Source: Akkermansia muciniphila
GTDB taxonomy: Bacteria; Verrucomicrobiota; Verrucomicrobiia; Opitutales; Opitutaceae
DNA: 64,000 bases
Assembly: GCA_945888375.1 (NCBI GenBank)
Contig: CAMCZZ010000008.1
Location: forward strand, 1 to 64,000
Direction: 5' to 3'
Below are positions 10,666-60,669 of this stretch, one piece after another. The translations under genes and the position numbers were made by a program. The notes under the pieces were generated by a model, which saw nothing but the letters and a program-made list of their open reading frames with translations, did not search any database and was not told the origin of the DNA. The first letter of the stretch is position 1; each line of letters begins with the position of its first letter.

Positions 10666-11634
10666 ATGCGCACTCTCACCGGCATCCAGCCTTCGGGCAT
10701 CCTTCATCTTGGCAACTACCTCGGTGCCATGCAGCCGGCGATCGCGGCGCAGGACCTAGCGGGTGACTGTTTCTATTTTATCGCCGATTACCACTCGATG
10801 ACGTCGCTCACGGATCCGCAAAAGCGGCGAGACTACACCCTCGGCGTCGCCCTCGACTGGCTGGCTTGCGGGCTGGATCCAGCCAAGAGCGTGCTTTGGC
10901 GCCAAAGCGATGTCCCTGAGGTATGCGAACTCGCCTGGATGCTCGGCACGCTGGCGCCGATGGGGCTTTTGGAGCGAGCCCATAGCTACAAGGACAAGAC
11001 CGCCCGCGGCCTTGCCGCCAACGTGGGCCTCTTCACCTACCCGGTGCTCATGGCGGCCGACATCCTCCTCTACGACACCACTCATGTTCCGGTCGGTCGC
11101 GACCAGAAGCAGCACGTGGAGATGACTCGCGACATGGCGATCAAGTTTAACCTGGCCTACGGAGAGACCTTCGTAGTGCCCGAGAGTGTGATCCGCGACG
11201 AATCCGCCGTCGTGCCCGGGCTGGACGGACAAAAGATGAGCAAGAGCTACGGCAATACCCTCGATCTCTTCGGCGACGAGAAAACCACGCGCAAAAAAAT
11301 CATGGGCATCCCGATGGATTCGCGAGCCCCCGGTGAGCCCAAGCCTGACGCCGATCAGAACCTCGCCATCCGCTTGCTCAAGGTGGTCGCCGCCCCGGCG
11401 TTTGCCCTCGAAACGGAGGAGCGTTTACGCGCCGGCGGGCTGGGTTACGGTGACCTGAAGAAAATCCTTTTTGAACAGGTCTGGACTCACTTTGAGGGAG
11501 CTCGGGCGCGCCGCGCCGCGCTCGCCGAGGACTCCGCGCATGTGGAGGCAGTGTTGCGCGAGGGCTCCGGCCGGGCCCGGGCGGTGGCCGAGGTCGTGCT
11601 GGCACGCGCCCGCCGGGCCTGCGGTTTGCGCTGA
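10666..11634 (+). CDS. trpS: Tryptophanyl-tRNA synthetase
   Basis: A class I aminoacyl-tRNA synthetase of 322 residues. The HIGH-type motif is P-S-G-I-L-H-L-G-N-Y-L-G near the N terminus and the KMSKS loop is G-Q-K-M-S-K-S-Y-G-N. D-Q-K-Q-H-V-E-M-T-R-D, typical of TrpRS, lies between them. It charges tRNA-Trp in the cytoplasm. ATG 10666 is chosen because R-T-L-T-G-I-Q-P-S-G follows at once; the 15 nt before it (10651-10665) are all pyrimidines and contain no Shine-Dalgarno sequence. The TGA stop (11632-11634) is one base from the terminal inverted repeat of an interspersed element. Confidence 0.95.
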   Translation: MRTLTGIQPSGILHLGNYLGAMQPAIAAQDLAGDCFYFIADYHSMTSLTDPQKRRDYTLGVALDWLACGLDPAKSVLWRQSDVPEVCELAWMLGTLAPMGLLERAHSYKDKTARGLAANVGLFTYPVLMAADILLYDTTHVPVGRDQKQHVEMTRDMAIKFNLAYGETFVVPESVIRDESAVVPGLDGQKMSKSYGNTLDLFGDEKTTRKKIMGIPMDSRAPGEPKPDADQNLAIRLLKVVAAPAFALETEERLRAGGLGYGDLKKILFEQVWTHFEGARARRAALAEDSAHVEAVLREGSGRARAVAEVVLARARRACGLR

Positions 11635-11635
11635 G

Positions 11636-11850
11636 CCGGGATCAGGCAGTTGCCTGGGTTCCCACCGAGGCGAACTGGCGGCGCCTTTCGGTGGGGCCCT
11701 CGGCGAAATACCCTTCGGGTAATTTTCGCCGAGGGCGCACCCTCCGACTACCGCTCCGGGCTTCGCCATCTCCGCTTCACTCCGTCCTTTACCCGGTCCG
11801 CCTCGAAAGACACTCGCCATTCTAGCCGCTGCTCAACTGCCTGTCCCCGG
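11636..11850 (-). repeat. Interspersed palindromic element, copy 1
   Basis: One of four related 198-225 bp elements in the window. Read on the minus strand it begins CCGGGGACAGGCAGTTG and ends CAACTGCCTGATCCCGG, a 17-bp terminal inverted repeat with one mismatch and the best preserved of the four. Inside are a TACCC/GGGTA hairpin (11709-11721) and a CC-GAAA-GG hairpin. It fills most of the gap between the convergent trpS and kdgK genes and starts one base after the trpS stop. No reading frame with coding character is present. It may be a non-autonomous transposable element or a structured RNA repeat acting at mRNA 3' ends. Confidence 0.85.
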
Positions 11851-31645: not shown

Positions 31646-33607
31646 ATGTCTTCACCTCTCCCCCTCAAGGATGCGTTCCTCGGCGCGGAATTGCTCCCGT
31701 CCACCCTCGTCAATTTGCACCGCTGGCTGGACGCTGGCCTGCCCGCGTGGGCGATCGCCTCGCTGGAGGAACTCGTCGCCGCCAAGGCTTGGGGCGAGTT
31801 GAACGACCGCTTTTACCAAGATCTTGAATTCGGCACCGGCGGCATGCGCGGCCGCACGATCGGCCGCGTCTCGACCGCCGCCGAACAGGGCGTGGCTGGT
31901 CCGCTTGGCACGCCGGAGCACGCTGCCATCGGCAGCAACATTCTCAACGACTACACTCTGGTCCGCGCGACCATCGGACTTTACCGCTACACCGCCTCCG
32001 TGCTCGCGGCCCAGGGCGACCCGCGCCCGCCCGCGCTCGTGATCGCGCACGACGTCCGGCACTTCTCGCGGCACTTCTGCGAGCTGGCCGCGTCCGCCTG
32101 GTCCCGCCTCGGCGGCCAAGCCTACATCTTCGCCGGCCCCCGGTCCACGCCCCAGCTGAGCTTCACCGTGCGGCACCTTGGCGCGCACTGCGGCGTGGTC
32201 ATCACCGCCAGCCACAACCCGCCCCACGACAACGGCTTCAAGGCCTACTTCGGGGACGGCGCCCAGCTCGTCGCCCCCCACGACGCCGGCGTCGTGGCCG
32301 AGGTCGGCCAGGTGCCGCTCGGCGATCTCGCCGCCTTCCTAGCCAAGGACCTCGCGCGCGTGGTCACGCTTGGCGGTCCGGCCGACGCAGCCTACCGCGC
32401 CGCCGCCGCTACCGCCGTGATCGATCCCGCCGTCTTCGCCGCCGTGCGCCTGAAAGTCGCCTACACCTCGATCCACGGCGTCGGCAACGTCATGTCCGTG
32501 CCGCTGCTCCAGGCCGCCGGGGTGGAGCTGCACGAGGAGCCCGCCCAGGCCGTCCACGACCCGCGTTTCCCGACTGTGAAATCGCCCAACCCCGAAAACG
32601 CCGAGGCGCTTTCGCTCGCGGTCAAGTTGGCCGAGGAGAAGGGCCTGGATCTGGTCATGGCCACCGACCCAGATTGCGATCGCATGGGCTGCGCGGTGCG
32701 CGGATCCGACGGCAAGATGCATTTGTTGAGCGGCAACCAGATCGGTGCGCTCATGACCGACTACCGTCTGGGCCGGTTCAAGGAGCTGGGTATCATCCCC
32801 GCCTCCGGCTCCGATCGCGTCGCGCTGGTCAAGACCTTCGTCACCACCTCGCTGCAGGACGAGATCGCCCGCTCCCACGGCGTGAAGGTCGTCAACACCC
32901 TCACCGGCTTCAAGTGGATCGCGGCCAAGATCCGCGGCTACGAGGAGGCCCTCAAGGCCGGCTACCTCGCAAAACACGGCGTCGCGATCGACTACGACGC
33001 CACGCCCTTCGCCAGCCGCGCGAAATTGCTGCAGGAATTCTCCACCTTTTACGCCTTCGGCTGCGAGGAGAGCTACGGCTACCTCGCGAATGACTTGGTG
33101 CGGGACAAGGATGGTAATTCCGCCTGCCTGATGCTGGCCGAACTTTGCGCCTATGTGAAGGGCCGCGGGATCACCGTGCCGGAGTATCTGGACGAGATTT
33201 ACCTTCGCACCGGCTACTTCCTTGAGGGGGTTATCAATTTATACTACGAGGGCGCGAGCGGTGCGGCCAAGATCAAGCGCATCCTTACCACCTACCGCGA
33301 GCAGCCGCCGGCGGCTTTCGGCGACGTAGCGGTGACTCAGTTCCAGGATTTCGGGCGTATGGATATCCACGACGCCGATGGCGAGCTCGTGCCAAAGCAG
33401 GATCTCTACCTCGTGACCCTGGCCAACGGCTATACCTTTGCCGCGCGCGGGTCGGGCACGGAGCCGAAGATGAAGTTCTACGTTTTTGCCAAGGCTCCGG
33501 TTGCCACCGCTGCCATGCTCCCCGCCGTCAAGTTGGCGGTGAAGGCCGAGCTCGATCGTGTGAAGACGCTGATCGAGGTCGATGCGCAAGCCCGGGCCGC
33601 TGGCTGA
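31646..33607 (+). CDS. Phosphohexomutase (phosphoglucomutase/phosphomannomutase family)
   Basis: A 653-residue alpha-D-phosphohexomutase. The phosphoserine loop is I-T-A-S-H-N-P-P-H-D-N-G, the Mg2+ loop A-T-D-P-D-C-D-R, the sugar-specificity loop C-E-E-S-Y-G-Y, and the phosphate-binding loop R-G-S-G-T-E-P-K. G-T-G-G-M-R-G near residue 63 is the usual entry motif of the large PgcA/PGM2-like branch. It interconverts hexose 6- and 1-phosphates. It lies 17 nt downstream of the UDP-sugar pyrophosphorylase. The start ATG follows an 11-nt pyrimidine run (31635-31645). The 426 bp beyond the stop hold an interspersed element (33681-33905) and no gene. Confidence 0.9.
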   Translation: MSSPLPLKDAFLGAELLPSTLVNLHRWLDAGLPAWAIASLEELVAAKAWGELNDRFYQDLEFGTGGMRGRTIGRVSTAAEQGVAGPLGTPEHAAIGSNILNDYTLVRATIGLYRYTASVLAAQGDPRPPALVIAHDVRHFSRHFCELAASAWSRLGGQAYIFAGPRSTPQLSFTVRHLGAHCGVVITASHNPPHDNGFKAYFGDGAQLVAPHDAGVVAEVGQVPLGDLAAFLAKDLARVVTLGGPADAAYRAAAATAVIDPAVFAAVRLKVAYTSIHGVGNVMSVPLLQAAGVELHEEPAQAVHDPRFPTVKSPNPENAEALSLAVKLAEEKGLDLVMATDPDCDRMGCAVRGSDGKMHLLSGNQIGALMTDYRLGRFKELGIIPASGSDRVALVKTFVTTSLQDEIARSHGVKVVNTLTGFKWIAAKIRGYEEALKAGYLAKHGVAIDYDATPFASRAKLLQEFSTFYAFGCEESYGYLANDLVRDKDGNSACLMLAELCAYVKGRGITVPEYLDEIYLRTGYFLEGVINLYYEGASGAAKIKRILTTYREQPPAAFGDVAVTQFQDFGRMDIHDADGELVPKQDLYLVTLANGYTFAARGSGTEPKMKFYVFAKAPVATAAMLPAVKLAVKAELDRVKTLIEVDAQARAAG

Positions 33608-33680
33608 ACCGCTCGGCCCCCCTCTTGGCGCCACCGATGGCCTTTGGGGGAGGGCGTCGGGTCTCCGAGGTCGTGCCGTG

Positions 33681-33905
33681 CCGGGATCCTGCCGTAGAAC
33701 GGCGGAGCAGCAGGGTGGAATGGCGAATGTATTTCGGTGCGGAGCGAGTAAAGGACCGAGTGAAGCGGAGATGGCGCCGCTCGGAGCCGTAGGCGGAGGG
33801 TGAGACCGCAGGGCGAACCATACTCGATGGTTATTTCGGGCGAGGGCCCGACCGAAAGGCGACGCCAGTTCGCTTGATGGGACCCGGGCAACTGCATGAT
33901 CCCGG
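33681..33905 (+). repeat. Interspersed palindromic element, copy 2
   Basis: The longest copy (225 bp), from CCGGGATCCTGCCGTAG to CAACTGCATGATCCCGG. It lies 73 nt after the mutase stop and 128 nt before cobA-hemD. Its central hairpin is AACCAT/ATGGTT (33816-33832), where the other copies have TACCC/GGGTA: both sides of the stem have changed together. The CC-GAAA-GG hairpin is intact. Shared core blocks with the other copies include GCGGAGCAGC, AGTGAAGCGGAGATGGCG, and GCAGGGCGAAC. The rest of the intergenic space (33608-33680, 33906-34033) shows nothing else recognisable. Confidence 0.85.
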
Positions 33906-34033
33906 TTGTGGTGTCAGTTGAAACGTCGCGGAATCCGGTTTGAATCAATCTTGCCTGTCAGCGTGCCTTGCGGTGCGGGTATTGGCTTTGTTTTCGTGTG
34001 CCCCGTTCGGGGTTGACGGTATTTCTCTCCTCC

Positions 34034-56123: not shown

Positions 56124-56324
56124 CCTGGATCATTCAGTTAAACGGCGGAGCAGCGGGGCGTGGGGCGAGTAGATTATGGCGCGGACCGAGCGAAGGCCGG
56201 AGCGGAGCGGAGCTGGCGCAGCCCGCAGGGCGAACAATACCCGGAGGGTATTTCGAGCCGAGGGCCCCAGCGAAAGGGGGCGCCAAGTCGCCTCGAAGCG
56301 ACCCGGGCAACGGAAGGCTCCCGG
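56124..56324 (+). repeat. Interspersed palindromic element, copy 3
   Basis: A 201-bp copy from CCTGGATCATTCAGTTAAAC to GCAACGGAAGGCTCCCGG. It contains an ATACCC/GGGTAT hairpin (56236-56252), a G-GAAA-like loop in CCCAGCGAAAGGGGG, and a GTCGC/GCGAC hairpin near the right end. Its right boundary abuts the SNF2 helicase stop codon: the next three bases are the complement of TAG (56325-56327). The element occupies nearly all of the gap between the tRNA-Phe upstream region and the SNF2 gene. Confidence 0.85.
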
Positions 56325-58778
56325 CTAAGGCGTCAGCAAGTCGCGCAGATCGGAAAGGGTCAGTTTCGCATTCACCGCGTCGCTCGCCTCGAATACGTCG
56401 GCCAGCAGGCGGCGTTTCTCGTCCTGTAGCATCATCACTTTTTCTTCGACTGTGCCGGCGCAGATCAACTTGTAGCTGGTCACGACCTTGGTCTGGCCGA
56501 TGCGGTGGGCGCGGTCGGTTGCCTGGGCTTCCGCGGCCGGGTTCCACCACGGGTCGAAATGCACCACGGTGTCGGCTCCGGTGAGATTCAGGCCGGTGCC
56601 GCCGGCCTTCAGCGAGATGAGGAAAACCGGGATATCGGGCGAATTGTTGTAACGATCGACTTCCAGCTGGCGTTGTTTCTGTGGAGTGGAGCCATCGAGG
56701 TAGCAGAAGTTGATGCCTTGTTTTTCGAGTTCGTCGCGCAGCAGGCTGAGCAGGCTGGTGAACTGGGAGAACACCAGCAGGCGGTGGCCGTCGTCGATCG
56801 CCTCGGCGAGGAGTTCGCGGAAGGTCTCGAGCTTGGCCGACGAAGAGGCTTCGGCCATCTGCTCGACCAAACGAGGGTCGCAGCAAATCTGGCGCAGGCG
56901 GAGGAGCTGGGTAAGGGTCGCGAGGCGTTGGGAGTTTTCCGATGCGCCGTCGGCGGCGAGGGCGTTGAGCTGTTCCTCGGAGCGGCGCTGGTAATCCTGG
57001 TAGAGTGCGAGTTGTTCGCTGGTTGGGGTGCAGAAAATCACCTGCTCGATCTTGGGCGGTAGCTCGGTGGCGACGATGGACTTGGTGCGGCGGAGGATGT
57101 AGGGCGCGGTTTGTTTGCGCAGGCGATCATCCTGCCAGTCGCGGTCAGCGGATTTCACGCCTGAACCGAGGGAGGCGGGGAGCTTGCCGTCGACGTAGCC
57201 GGGCAGCACGATTTCGAAAAGGGTGCGCAAGTCCTCGAGCGAGTTTTCCACCGGGGTGCCGGTGAGCAGGATGCGACTCTGGGCGTGCAGGCCGCGGAGT
57301 GCGCGGGCGTTGAGGGAGCGCCGGTTTTTGGCGTGCTGGGCCTCGTCGGCGACCAGCGTGGCGAGGTCCAGTTCGGCGAAAAGATCCGCGTCGCGACCGA
57401 GGGTGCCGTAGGAGGTGATAAACAAATCGTGCGCGGCGGCGGCCTCGGCCGAGGCGAGGCGGTTTGTGCCGTGGTGAATGAAAACCCGCAGGCCGGGGGC
57501 AAAACGGGCCGCCTCGCGGCGCCAGTTCTCGACCAGCGAGGCGGGGCAGACCACGAGGGAGGGGCGGCGGTCCTTCGCGGCGGTGGCGTGGACTATGGCG
57601 GAGAGCAGGGCGAGGGCCTGGGCGGTTTTGCCGAGGCCCATCTCGTCGGCGAGGATGCCGCCCAGGTCATGCCGATGGAGGTGCCAGAGCCAGGCGGCGC
57701 CAATCTGTTGGTAGGGACGGAGAGTGGCGGCGAAATCGGTTGGCAGTGGGGCTGGCTCGAGACGCGACAGATCGCGCAGCGCCTCGGCGCGGCGTCGCCA
57801 GCCGTCGGGCGTCTGGGCGTCGGGCGAGATCTCGTCGAGCATATCCTGGAGTTCGGGTATGCGGGCGGCGGTGACGCGCTGGATTTTGCGGGCGACGACA
57901 GGGGCGGCGGTGCCACCGGCGAGGGCAGCCTGGGCCTTGGCGAGGCGTTCCAGCTGGTCGGGCGGGAGCAGGTAGATTTTTTTGCCGTCCTCCACGAAGC
58001 GTCGACCGGCGGCTAGAGCGGCGCGCAACTCTTCCTCGGTGACTTTGCCGGCGGCCAGACCCACGGTCACCGCAAACTCGTCCCCGCCGGCCTCGGCGAC
58101 TTTTGCCTCCACTCGGGCGTTGGCTAGGCCGGCGGTGTTTTTTTCGAAATTCGGAGTAAAGTCGGCGTGGAAGCGATTGCGCAGGGACTCCCCGTGGGTG
58201 GCGAGGAAGTTGAGGACTTTGTGCCGGTCGCGCAGCCACCATTTTTTAGTCGAAGGATCGAGGGCGAAACCATGGGTGGAAAGCAAGTCGCGGGCGGAGG
58301 CGTAGCCGGGGGCTTCACGGGAGGGCAGACCGATGGCCAGATAGTGTTCGCTCCCGTCAACTTGCAGCGGGGTGACGGGTTCGTCGCGCGGCACGATACG
58401 CGGGGTGCGGGCCGAGAGGGACCGGGGGCCCACTGGGGTGGCGGGCACGGCGGCGGAGGGCAGAGGCGTGGCAGGCGCCAGGTGTTCACTCACGCCGCGC
58501 AGGCGTGGGCCTAGCCACAGCAGATTTTTATCCGGCTCCGTCAGGGCGGCGAATACGGGCTGACCGGCCAGAGCCGACACCAACTCACGCAATTGGGCGC
58601 GGGTTAGCTGAAGAAAAGGGGGAGGTGTTGCGCCGCCTCCGCCGATGCGAGCAAGCACGGCCAAGCCGGGGAATTGGGCGGGCACGGGCGGGGCTTGTGG
58701 ATCCAGCTGAATTTTGACGGGTATGGCGTCACGCAAAGCGGCGGTGGGCAGATTCGGAGGGAGCAAAAGGCGCAACAT
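56325..58778 (-). CDS. SNF2-family helicase-like ATPase
   Basis: An 817-residue SWI2/SNF2 protein. The N-terminal 330 residues carry no recognised domain apart from a W-W-L-R-D segment. The motor has motif I D-E-M-G-L-G-K-T-A-Q-A-L, motif II D-E-A-Q-H, motif III L-L-T-G-T-P-V-E-N, and C-terminal L-K-A-G-G-T-G-L-N-L-T-G-A-D and D-R-A-H-R-I-G-Q-T (motif VI). Bacterial SNF2 proteins translocate on DNA and may displace proteins or RNA polymerase; specific roles are mostly unknown. No SWIM zinc finger is seen. Its stop abuts element copy 3. Confidence 0.88.
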   Translation of the reverse strand: MLRLLLPPNLPTAALRDAIPVKIQLDPQAPPVPAQFPGLAVLARIGGGGATPPPFLQLTRAQLRELVSALAGQPVFAALTEPDKNLLWLGPRLRGVSEHLAPATPLPSAAVPATPVGPRSLSARTPRIVPRDEPVTPLQVDGSEHYLAIGLPSREAPGYASARDLLSTHGFALDPSTKKWWLRDRHKVLNFLATHGESLRNRFHADFTPNFEKNTAGLANARVEAKVAEAGGDEFAVTVGLAAGKVTEEELRAALAAGRRFVEDGKKIYLLPPDQLERLAKAQAALAGGTAAPVVARKIQRVTAARIPELQDMLDEISPDAQTPDGWRRRAEALRDLSRLEPAPLPTDFAATLRPYQQIGAAWLWHLHRHDLGGILADEMGLGKTAQALALLSAIVHATAAKDRRPSLVVCPASLVENWRREAARFAPGLRVFIHHGTNRLASAEAAAAHDLFITSYGTLGRDADLFAELDLATLVADEAQHAKNRRSLNARALRGLHAQSRILLTGTPVENSLEDLRTLFEIVLPGYVDGKLPASLGSGVKSADRDWQDDRLRKQTAPYILRRTKSIVATELPPKIEQVIFCTPTSEQLALYQDYQRRSEEQLNALAADGASENSQRLATLTQLLRLRQICCDPRLVEQMAEASSSAKLETFRELLAEAIDDGHRLLVFSQFTSLLSLLRDELEKQGINFCYLDGSTPQKQRQLEVDRYNNSPDIPVFLISLKAGGTGLNLTGADTVVHFDPWWNPAAEAQATDRAHRIGQTKVVTSYKLICAGTVEEKVMMLQDEKRRLLADVFEASDAVNAKLTLSDLRDLLTP

Positions 58779-59206
58779 GCAGGGTCGTTCAGCTTGGGGG
58801 CGAAAGGGAGTTGCGAAAGGAAAAAGGCGGAATGCGCCTCCTGTTAAAAATCAGCCCCTTCTCGATTAATCGCTTATCGTTCCCCGATCTTCATTCCAGA
58901 TTCTTGCGGATGGGTAGGGATTGATCCTTGCGGTCTCCATTGTGGTCCGTGGCTACATCTTTAAAAAATCGTATTTTTAAGTCTTAAATAGATAATCTAC
59001 AATAATATATGAAAATAAAGGACTAGTGTTTCAGCAGTTCAAACCGATAGGGATGCCGGATAAAACCGGCCGTTTTTGCTACAAATCCGTGACGTTAAGC
59101 GTGAAATGACCGGGGAAGCGTTTGCGCGCTTGCATGTCGAATCCCAATCCTCACAATAAGTTCGTTGACCGTATTTCGCCATTACTTTGCTTTTCTAATT
59201 ACGCTT
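58779..59206. promoter_or_regulatory. AT-rich divergent intergenic region upstream of fecR-like gene
   Basis: 428 bp with no gene. The part from 58955 to 59030 is far richer in A/T than its surroundings and probably holds the promoters. A terminator-like GCCGG/CCGGC stem with five T residues (59055-59077) and an AAGCG/CGCTT hairpin (59116-59131) lie in what would be the leader of the downstream gene, so attenuation or a structured 5' UTR is possible. I recognise no known riboswitch. Confidence 0.45.
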
Positions 59207-60201: not shown

Positions 60202-60471
60202 GTGCCTCTTGCTCTATGGCTCTAGGCGAAGTGGATAGTGGCTAAACCCCAATTTTCTTAACCTGGATTCCGCGATCAACGCAGATTTCTGGCGCAACCT
60301 TTTGGCCGTTTGCTCGCCGCGTCCTCTGCGCGCAGCACCTTGCCGGCGTAGGCGGGGATTCCGCACCGACCCCACGGCTTAAAATTTTGCGCGATGTCTG
60401 CTGGGGACTCGCGGTCTCCGCGCTAAGCGCAAAACCACCTGCAACAGAATCTTGTGTCGAGATCTCCTCAG
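60202..60471. other. Gene-free stretch before element copy 4
   Basis: No reading frame with coding character. It contains short pieces such as GATCAACGCAGATTTC and GCGGTCTCCGCGCTAAGCGC that look like degraded intergenic repeat sequence, but no second clear copy is found in the window. Together with copy 4 and the hairpin beyond it, the total gap to the kinase stop is 572 bp. Confidence 0.4.
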
Positions 60472-60669
60472 CCCGGATCATGCCGTTGGACGCCAGAGCA
60501 GCGCGGCGAGGGGCAAGCAGATTTTGACGCGGACCGAGCAAAGAAAGGCGCGAAGCGGAGGGTGAGCAGGCAGGGCGAACACTACCCGGAGGGTATTTGG
60601 AGCGAAGGCCCCCGCCGAAGGTTGCCGCCAAATCGGCTCGACGCGACCCGGGTAACTGAACGATCCCGG
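60472..60669 (+). repeat. Interspersed palindromic element, copy 4
   Basis: A 198-bp copy from CCCGGATCATGCCGTTG to TAACTGAACGATCCCGG. It has the TACCC/GGGTA hairpin (60583-60595) and shared blocks GCGGACCGAGC, GCGAAGCGGAGGGTGAG and GCAGGGCGAAC. It is the most diverged in the tetraloop region (CCGAAGG). Its right end faces the stop of the minus-strand hybrid kinase, 48 nt away. Confidence 0.83.

Follow-up and report, generated by a model that had tools for sequence, protein, structure and literature searches.

Short intergenic repeats in a bacterial genome and their probable partners among IS1380-family insertion sequences

Results

The window analysed here (the whole stretch of DNA, 64,000 nucleotides of contig CAMCZZ010000008.1) carries four copies of a short interspersed repeat, which we describe as a putative MITE (Table 1). 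A covariance model built from 15 short copies, with no window copy among them, gives all four exactly and end to end, at the coordinates and on the strands reported in the first-pass annotation of this DNA. That annotation also held them to be intergenic and non-coding, and this agrees with our results: none of the four overlaps a frame predicted by a GC-based caller, and the longest closed ORFs within them are 44, 27, 58 and 34 aa. The 17-bp terminal inverted repeats that it described are present, but they are imperfect, with 15, 14, 12 and 12 of 17 positions agreeing in the four copies. Its claim of common interior blocks holds in so far as the copies align over their length, but the blocks that it named differ from copy to copy.

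Table 1 Features of the repeat family in the window.
Feature	Position	Strand	Details
Putative MITE copy, 215 bp	11636..11850	-	Flanks CTGAG (11631-11635) / CAGAG
Putative MITE copy, long form, 225 bp	33681..33905	+	Ends 33681-33697 and 33889-33905; eroded flanks CCGTG / TTGTG
Additional internal block (long form)	33756..33819	+	Missing from the 162-163-bp short form
Putative MITE copy, 201 bp	56124..56324	+	Flanks CTCAG / CTAAG
Putative MITE copy, 198 bp	60472..60669	+	Flanks CTCAG / CCCCA

The family has CCGGGATCATGCAGTTG-type ends, the right one in inverted orientation; their 17 bp are imperfect here and perfect in many relatives. Its two main forms are 162-163 bp long and, with the extra block, about 225 bp, and with the 33681 copy as query the short copies of relatives match query positions 1-75 and 140-225 side by side. 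A block similar to the extra one is present in two copies from another genus (genome G200), and shorter derivatives occur, for example one of 64 bp in G013. L114 (1819-1841), L115 (1028-1091) and L126 (944-981) hold very short derivatives, 23, 64 and 38 bp long, with CTNAG-like flanks adjoining or on both sides. A second MITE-like repeat lies in the window as a diverged copy of about 160 bp (60262-60422), 50 bp before the 60472 copy; its ends are CCCGGATACCGCGATTATC, and among the 12 further copies in the comparison several have TTTAA- or TTCAA-like flanks on both sides.

A high genome-wide copy number had been predicted from the four window copies, and we find the repeat at 51 or more places, fragments included, in the 3.2-Mb genome, which refutes the possibility that there are only these four. 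The count is the union of 45 distinct places from a profile search of those stretches of the genome that had been retrieved (29 places extend to both ends), and 6 new places among 35 from the covariance model. BLAST of the same genome with the 33681 copy gives at least 44 matching pieces (40 of the 68 candidates scored), with an E value of 5.4e-59 for the best match outside the copy itself. The first-pass annotation had also considered that the repeat might turn out to be a known named repeat or Rfam family. No Rfam match was found: the whole 64-kb window yields nothing but a tRNA at the gathering score, and 33600-34000, around the 33681 copy, yields only chance-level matches at a relaxed threshold.

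Within the genus, BLAST finds matches in 10 of the 14 other genomes, and outside it one weak 40-base match among the other 42 genomes searched. The covariance model detects the repeat in relatives that BLAST missed: with at most 14 candidates scored per genome it reports 23 of 200 genomes of the family and 9 of 49 genera, or 20 genomes and 7 genera after removal of G157, G186 and G207 (two genera), which carry a different element. A scan of genome contigs for CTNAG plus the end returned 41 stretches, all of which are titled as Verrucomicrobiota or as taxa within it, such as Akkermansia and Pedosphaera. The CAMCHD01 records L163, L164 and L188, titled Akkermansia muciniphila, carry the repeat. 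Mean pairwise identity is 74% for 27 copies of the window's own genome and 93% for 11 copies of G013; judged by their sequences, the former appear to be fossils and the latter recent.

CTNAG adjoins the CC ends of the copies. For the 27 copies of this genome with both ends recognised, the middle flank base is equal in 17 (permutation mean 7.9, p 5e-5), the flanking 5-mers are identical in 4 and strict CTNAG stands on both sides in only 5. Copies of relatives have an equal middle base in 18/24 (mean 7.8; 0/20000 permutations as high) and identical 5-mers in 11/24, and among 57 copies from other genera CTNAG is found at the left in 37 and at the right in 34, with identical 5-mers in 21. The target duplications that had been suggested as a check are visible as CTNAG flanks with a middle base that is equal on both sides far more often than by chance, although the flanks of all four window copies are eroded and none of the four retains an intact duplication.

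Empty sites in relatives, another suggested check, were sought by joined-flank searches at six loci, and three of these, two of them in the window, are empty in the relative G011. At C2:229449 a 173-bp element is missing in G011, which has one CTCAG compared with TTCAG and CTCAG here; such a single target copy in the empty site favours gain in the lineage of this genome over loss in the other. At the 56124 locus the G011 alignment crosses the junction with single-base gaps only, and G006, G014 and G009 are without an insert of such size, though their spacers differ. At the 33681 locus the alignment crosses the junction without an insert in G011 and, poorly, in G014. The C24:21786, 11636 and 60472 loci gave no information, because the flanks lie on different contigs, have 1.2 kb between them or are repetitive. 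The repeats have the properties by which a MITE is recognised: they are short, contain no transposase gene, have inverted ends, show a target duplication and an empty site, and occur in many copies.

Many copies lie on the stop codon of a gene, with the stop duplicated, because a stop can be read from CTNAG in one frame or on one strand. Among 133 flank ends from this genome and its relatives, 96 have a converging frame, whose stop falls within the 5-bp flank in 32; at any other offset from -30 to 20 there are at most 2, and 50 are farther off. Counted by copy, the flanking 5-mer contains a stop codon in 11/39 copies of this genome and 21/49 of relatives. Two of the four window copies are placed in this way: the left flank of the 11636 copy contains the TGA stop of a + strand frame ending at 11634, and the right flank of the 56124 copy contains the TAG stop of a - strand frame (56325-58850). 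As background, 37 of 127 CTNAG sites outside genes hold a stop (a smaller sample held 6 stop and 24 intergenic CTNAG sites), and in comparison with this an attraction to stops beyond the motif is rejected for both this genome (p 1.0) and the relatives (p 0.11). In other genera a looser ORF rule places a stop in the flank of 33/56 copies; we do not claim this excess (p 0.0002), the looser rule having also scored fixed internal stops, at up to 7 of 109 ends. Row L356, being a different element, is excluded from these stop counts and from the pairing counts below. The motif and the presumed loss of insertions inside genes together explain most of the stop-codon placement.

The compact form of the repeat, a 163-nt copy from G013 (L085), is predicted to fold into a single hairpin over its whole length (-102.3 kcal/mol, z -10.4), and the long window copy is predicted to fold less well (z -2.7). 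A structured repeat RNA was the second reading offered by the first-pass annotation; what stands of it is that the compact form is one long hairpin with pairs that covary across relatives, while selection on pairing is not seen in the copies of this genome. We weighed the possibility that the repeat is an RNA hairpin that acts to the host's benefit on the 3' end of the gene upstream of it, through stability, processing or termination, and that mobility merely spread it. Consistent with this, many copies lie directly after a stop codon, and in the 15 short copies 96% of cells are paired and both sides have changed in 20 of 63 pairs, compared with 6.3 in shuffled and 1-4 in slid controls. In 39 mixed copies, however, the 28 double-change pairs are no excess over the 21-29 of slid controls (18.2 in shuffles; 82.5% of cells paired), although the number of cells is higher (83 compared with 34-54 when slid).

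Strand-symmetric mutation produces equal numbers of one-sided transitions giving G-U and A-C. With the count restricted to reference pairs of the Watson-Crick kind, and row L356 left out, the G-U to A-C ratio in other genera is 67:33 (26 sister pairs, p 0.0009; rows aligned to the model) and 68:33 against the genome consensus. In contrast, it is 54:58 in the window's own genome (13 sister pairs, p 0.78), or 86:113 against the consensus (p 0.07), and for the genus it is 14:9 (p 0.40 from 7 sister pairs). The events in all these counts are non-independent, being of common ancestry. Transversion breaks are common in other genera too (78), and a palindrome could also owe its symmetry to DNA repair or to which ends the transposase selects. 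The counts provide weak evidence for what may be a constraint on one strand in active lineages, with no sign of such in this genome. The hairpin tip is found again in an element of another kind, with ends of its own, which fits a role for the RNA. On balance, we consider it unlikely that usefulness to the host as RNA, rather than transposition, accounts for the family.

The different hairpin element itself (L356 and L360-L363, in G157, G186 and G207) has ends such as GACTGTCC or GGCTGTTT and the tip AATACCCGGAGGGTATTTCG, or one near it, in common with the family, and the tip may be a module, given that it is common to two different elements.

A DDE_Tnp_1 search of the 15 genomes of the genus found none in the window's own genome, in which no intact partner IS was detected, only a decayed transposase piece with stop codons. 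In G003 we found a cut-off element with the end CTTAG plus CCGAAAACGTGCAGTTG. The IS1380 model NF033539 recognises its 289-aa partial transposase (E 2.4e-35, 122 bits), which is incomplete and falls below the cut-off of 180. Used as a query, this transposase has matches in 35 of 150 genomes of the family. Ends like those of the repeat stand 1490-1498 bp apart in 5 of the 30 IS1380-transposase loci inspected (L203, L204, L205, L206 and L211). In L203, L204 and L206 identical CTNAG flanks are found on both sides, and the transposases score 248, 231 and 245 bits against the IS1380 cut-off of 180; the flanks of L205 and L211 do not match. A transposase with matching ends, the remaining proposed check, is thus present in relatives in full-length IS1380-family elements of about 1.49 kb. 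The IS copy of L206 sits on the TGA stop of an upstream frame (21-926), and one Opitutae MAG has two contig ends with exact CCGGGATCATGCAGTTG followed by sequence that resembles the IS end of L204. More distant IS1380 loci (L213, L214, L216, L218-L221 and L229) have a different end, of the type CCTAAATTCCGCAGTTG.

Comparison of the putative MITE with the IS shows no common sequence except the ends. The end variants of the MITE are CCGGGATC, CCGGACTC, CCGTAACG or CCGTAAAG, and CCGGGACG, those of the IS are CCGGGATC, CCGGACTC, CCGGAACG and CCGTAACG, and the two sets appear to run parallel; in G164, MITEs of the CCGTAA type occur together with an IS copy that has a CCGTAACG end. In G013, despite its apparently young copies, no intact partner IS was detected, only a cut-off relic. 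Other Opitutia MAGs carry the same ends and CTNAG flanks around other interiors, of about 157 bp in L169, L175, L177, L186, L193 and L194 and of about 145 bp in L171 and L190. With different interiors between the same ends, the ends alone cannot tie one MITE to one IS, and one transposase group probably serves several MITEs.

Two further candidates were rejected: a weak DUF4096 match in the window's own genome (C26:31804) has no MITE-like ends at up to 4 mismatches, and viral contigs gave one single end, with no second end within the 1144 bases examined. It is very improbable that the MITE is moved by a transposase from a different DDE family, for example IS5, in which case the duplication would be the 3-bp TNA. 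The flanks do allow this reading if the outer C and G are assigned to the ends, and other DDE transposases are present in the genus, but among 32 PF01609 and PF13340 loci a MITE-like end (at most 4 mismatches) is found in L140 alone, itself IS1380-type, and the full-length IS1380 elements have both ends and the whole CTNAG in common with the MITE.

Discussion

From these sequence comparisons we conclude, with a probability of roughly 0.88, that the repeats are non-autonomous MITEs of about 160-225 bp, moved by the IS1380-family transposase of a separate IS with like 17-bp ends and inserting at CTNAG. The first-pass annotation had suggested a MITE-like element mobilised in trans, and this is supported by the inverted ends, the target duplications, the empty sites, the copy number and the IS with matching ends, from which we infer that an IS1380 transposase moves the MITE in trans.

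In the proposed mechanism, an IS1380-family transposase from a separate IS with 17-bp ends of the same type would recognise the ends of the MITE, which would be inserted at CTNAG, and fill-in would leave CTNAG on either side. CTNAG presents TGA, TAA or TAG in one frame (for CTCAG, on the other strand), and an insertion on a stop codon would restore the stop and leave the protein unchanged. Insertions inside genes would presumably be lost, probably because selection removes them. In the window's own genome the transposase has decayed, and the MITE copies are probably fossils.

A more far-reaching proposal, which we advance as speculative and rather doubtful, is that these are mobile 3'-end hairpins. 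CTNAG would steer them to stops, the duplication would rebuild the stop, and every insertion would put a conserved hairpin RNA, some 160 nt long, right behind an intact frame. In several genera, selection acting on the RNA would preserve the hairpin in active lineages, above all its tip, with the ends changing to suit the IS1380 transposase of the host.

At the title and abstract level, no description of an IS1380-family MITE was found in the literature searched, and the term 'IS1380' is absent from the text of a review on prokaryotic MITEs (PMC10969869). An unannotated repeat found at 51 places in one genome now has a likely partner transposase, a target and a distribution. The overlap between target and stop codon would offer a transposon a simple route to enter gene-dense DNA harmlessly, and the MITE family supplies many natural cases that bear on the effects of hairpins at mRNA 3' ends.

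ISEcp1 is an IS1380-family insertion sequence, and IS630 is the partner of RUP. The full-length IS1380-family relatives, whose transposases score above the family cut-off, agree with the MITE in type of ends and in target; unlike them, the MITE has no transposase, and it has no likeness to them beyond the ends. IS1247, another member of the IS1380 family, has a 5-bp duplication and a length of 1672 bp (PMC3281130). ERIC is a short palindromic intergenic mobile repeat of enterobacteria that forms a stem-loop, with 127 bp, 7-bp ends and TA termini (PMC2229807), and the MITE, with its 160-225 bp, 17-bp ends and CTNAG, is set apart from it by length, ends and flanks. RUP of Streptococcus pneumoniae and other IS-dependent MITEs are described as short and non-coding, with inverted ends and a target duplication, and are thought to depend on an IS transposase (PMC2229807, PMC10969869). 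On that description, the MITE resembles RUP in being short and non-coding and in having inverted ends and a target duplication, whereas RUP differs in its ends and TA termini. The family is very probably served by IS1380-type transposases and has an unusually well-kept hairpin; it would work like ERIC or RUP, but is not classed with either.
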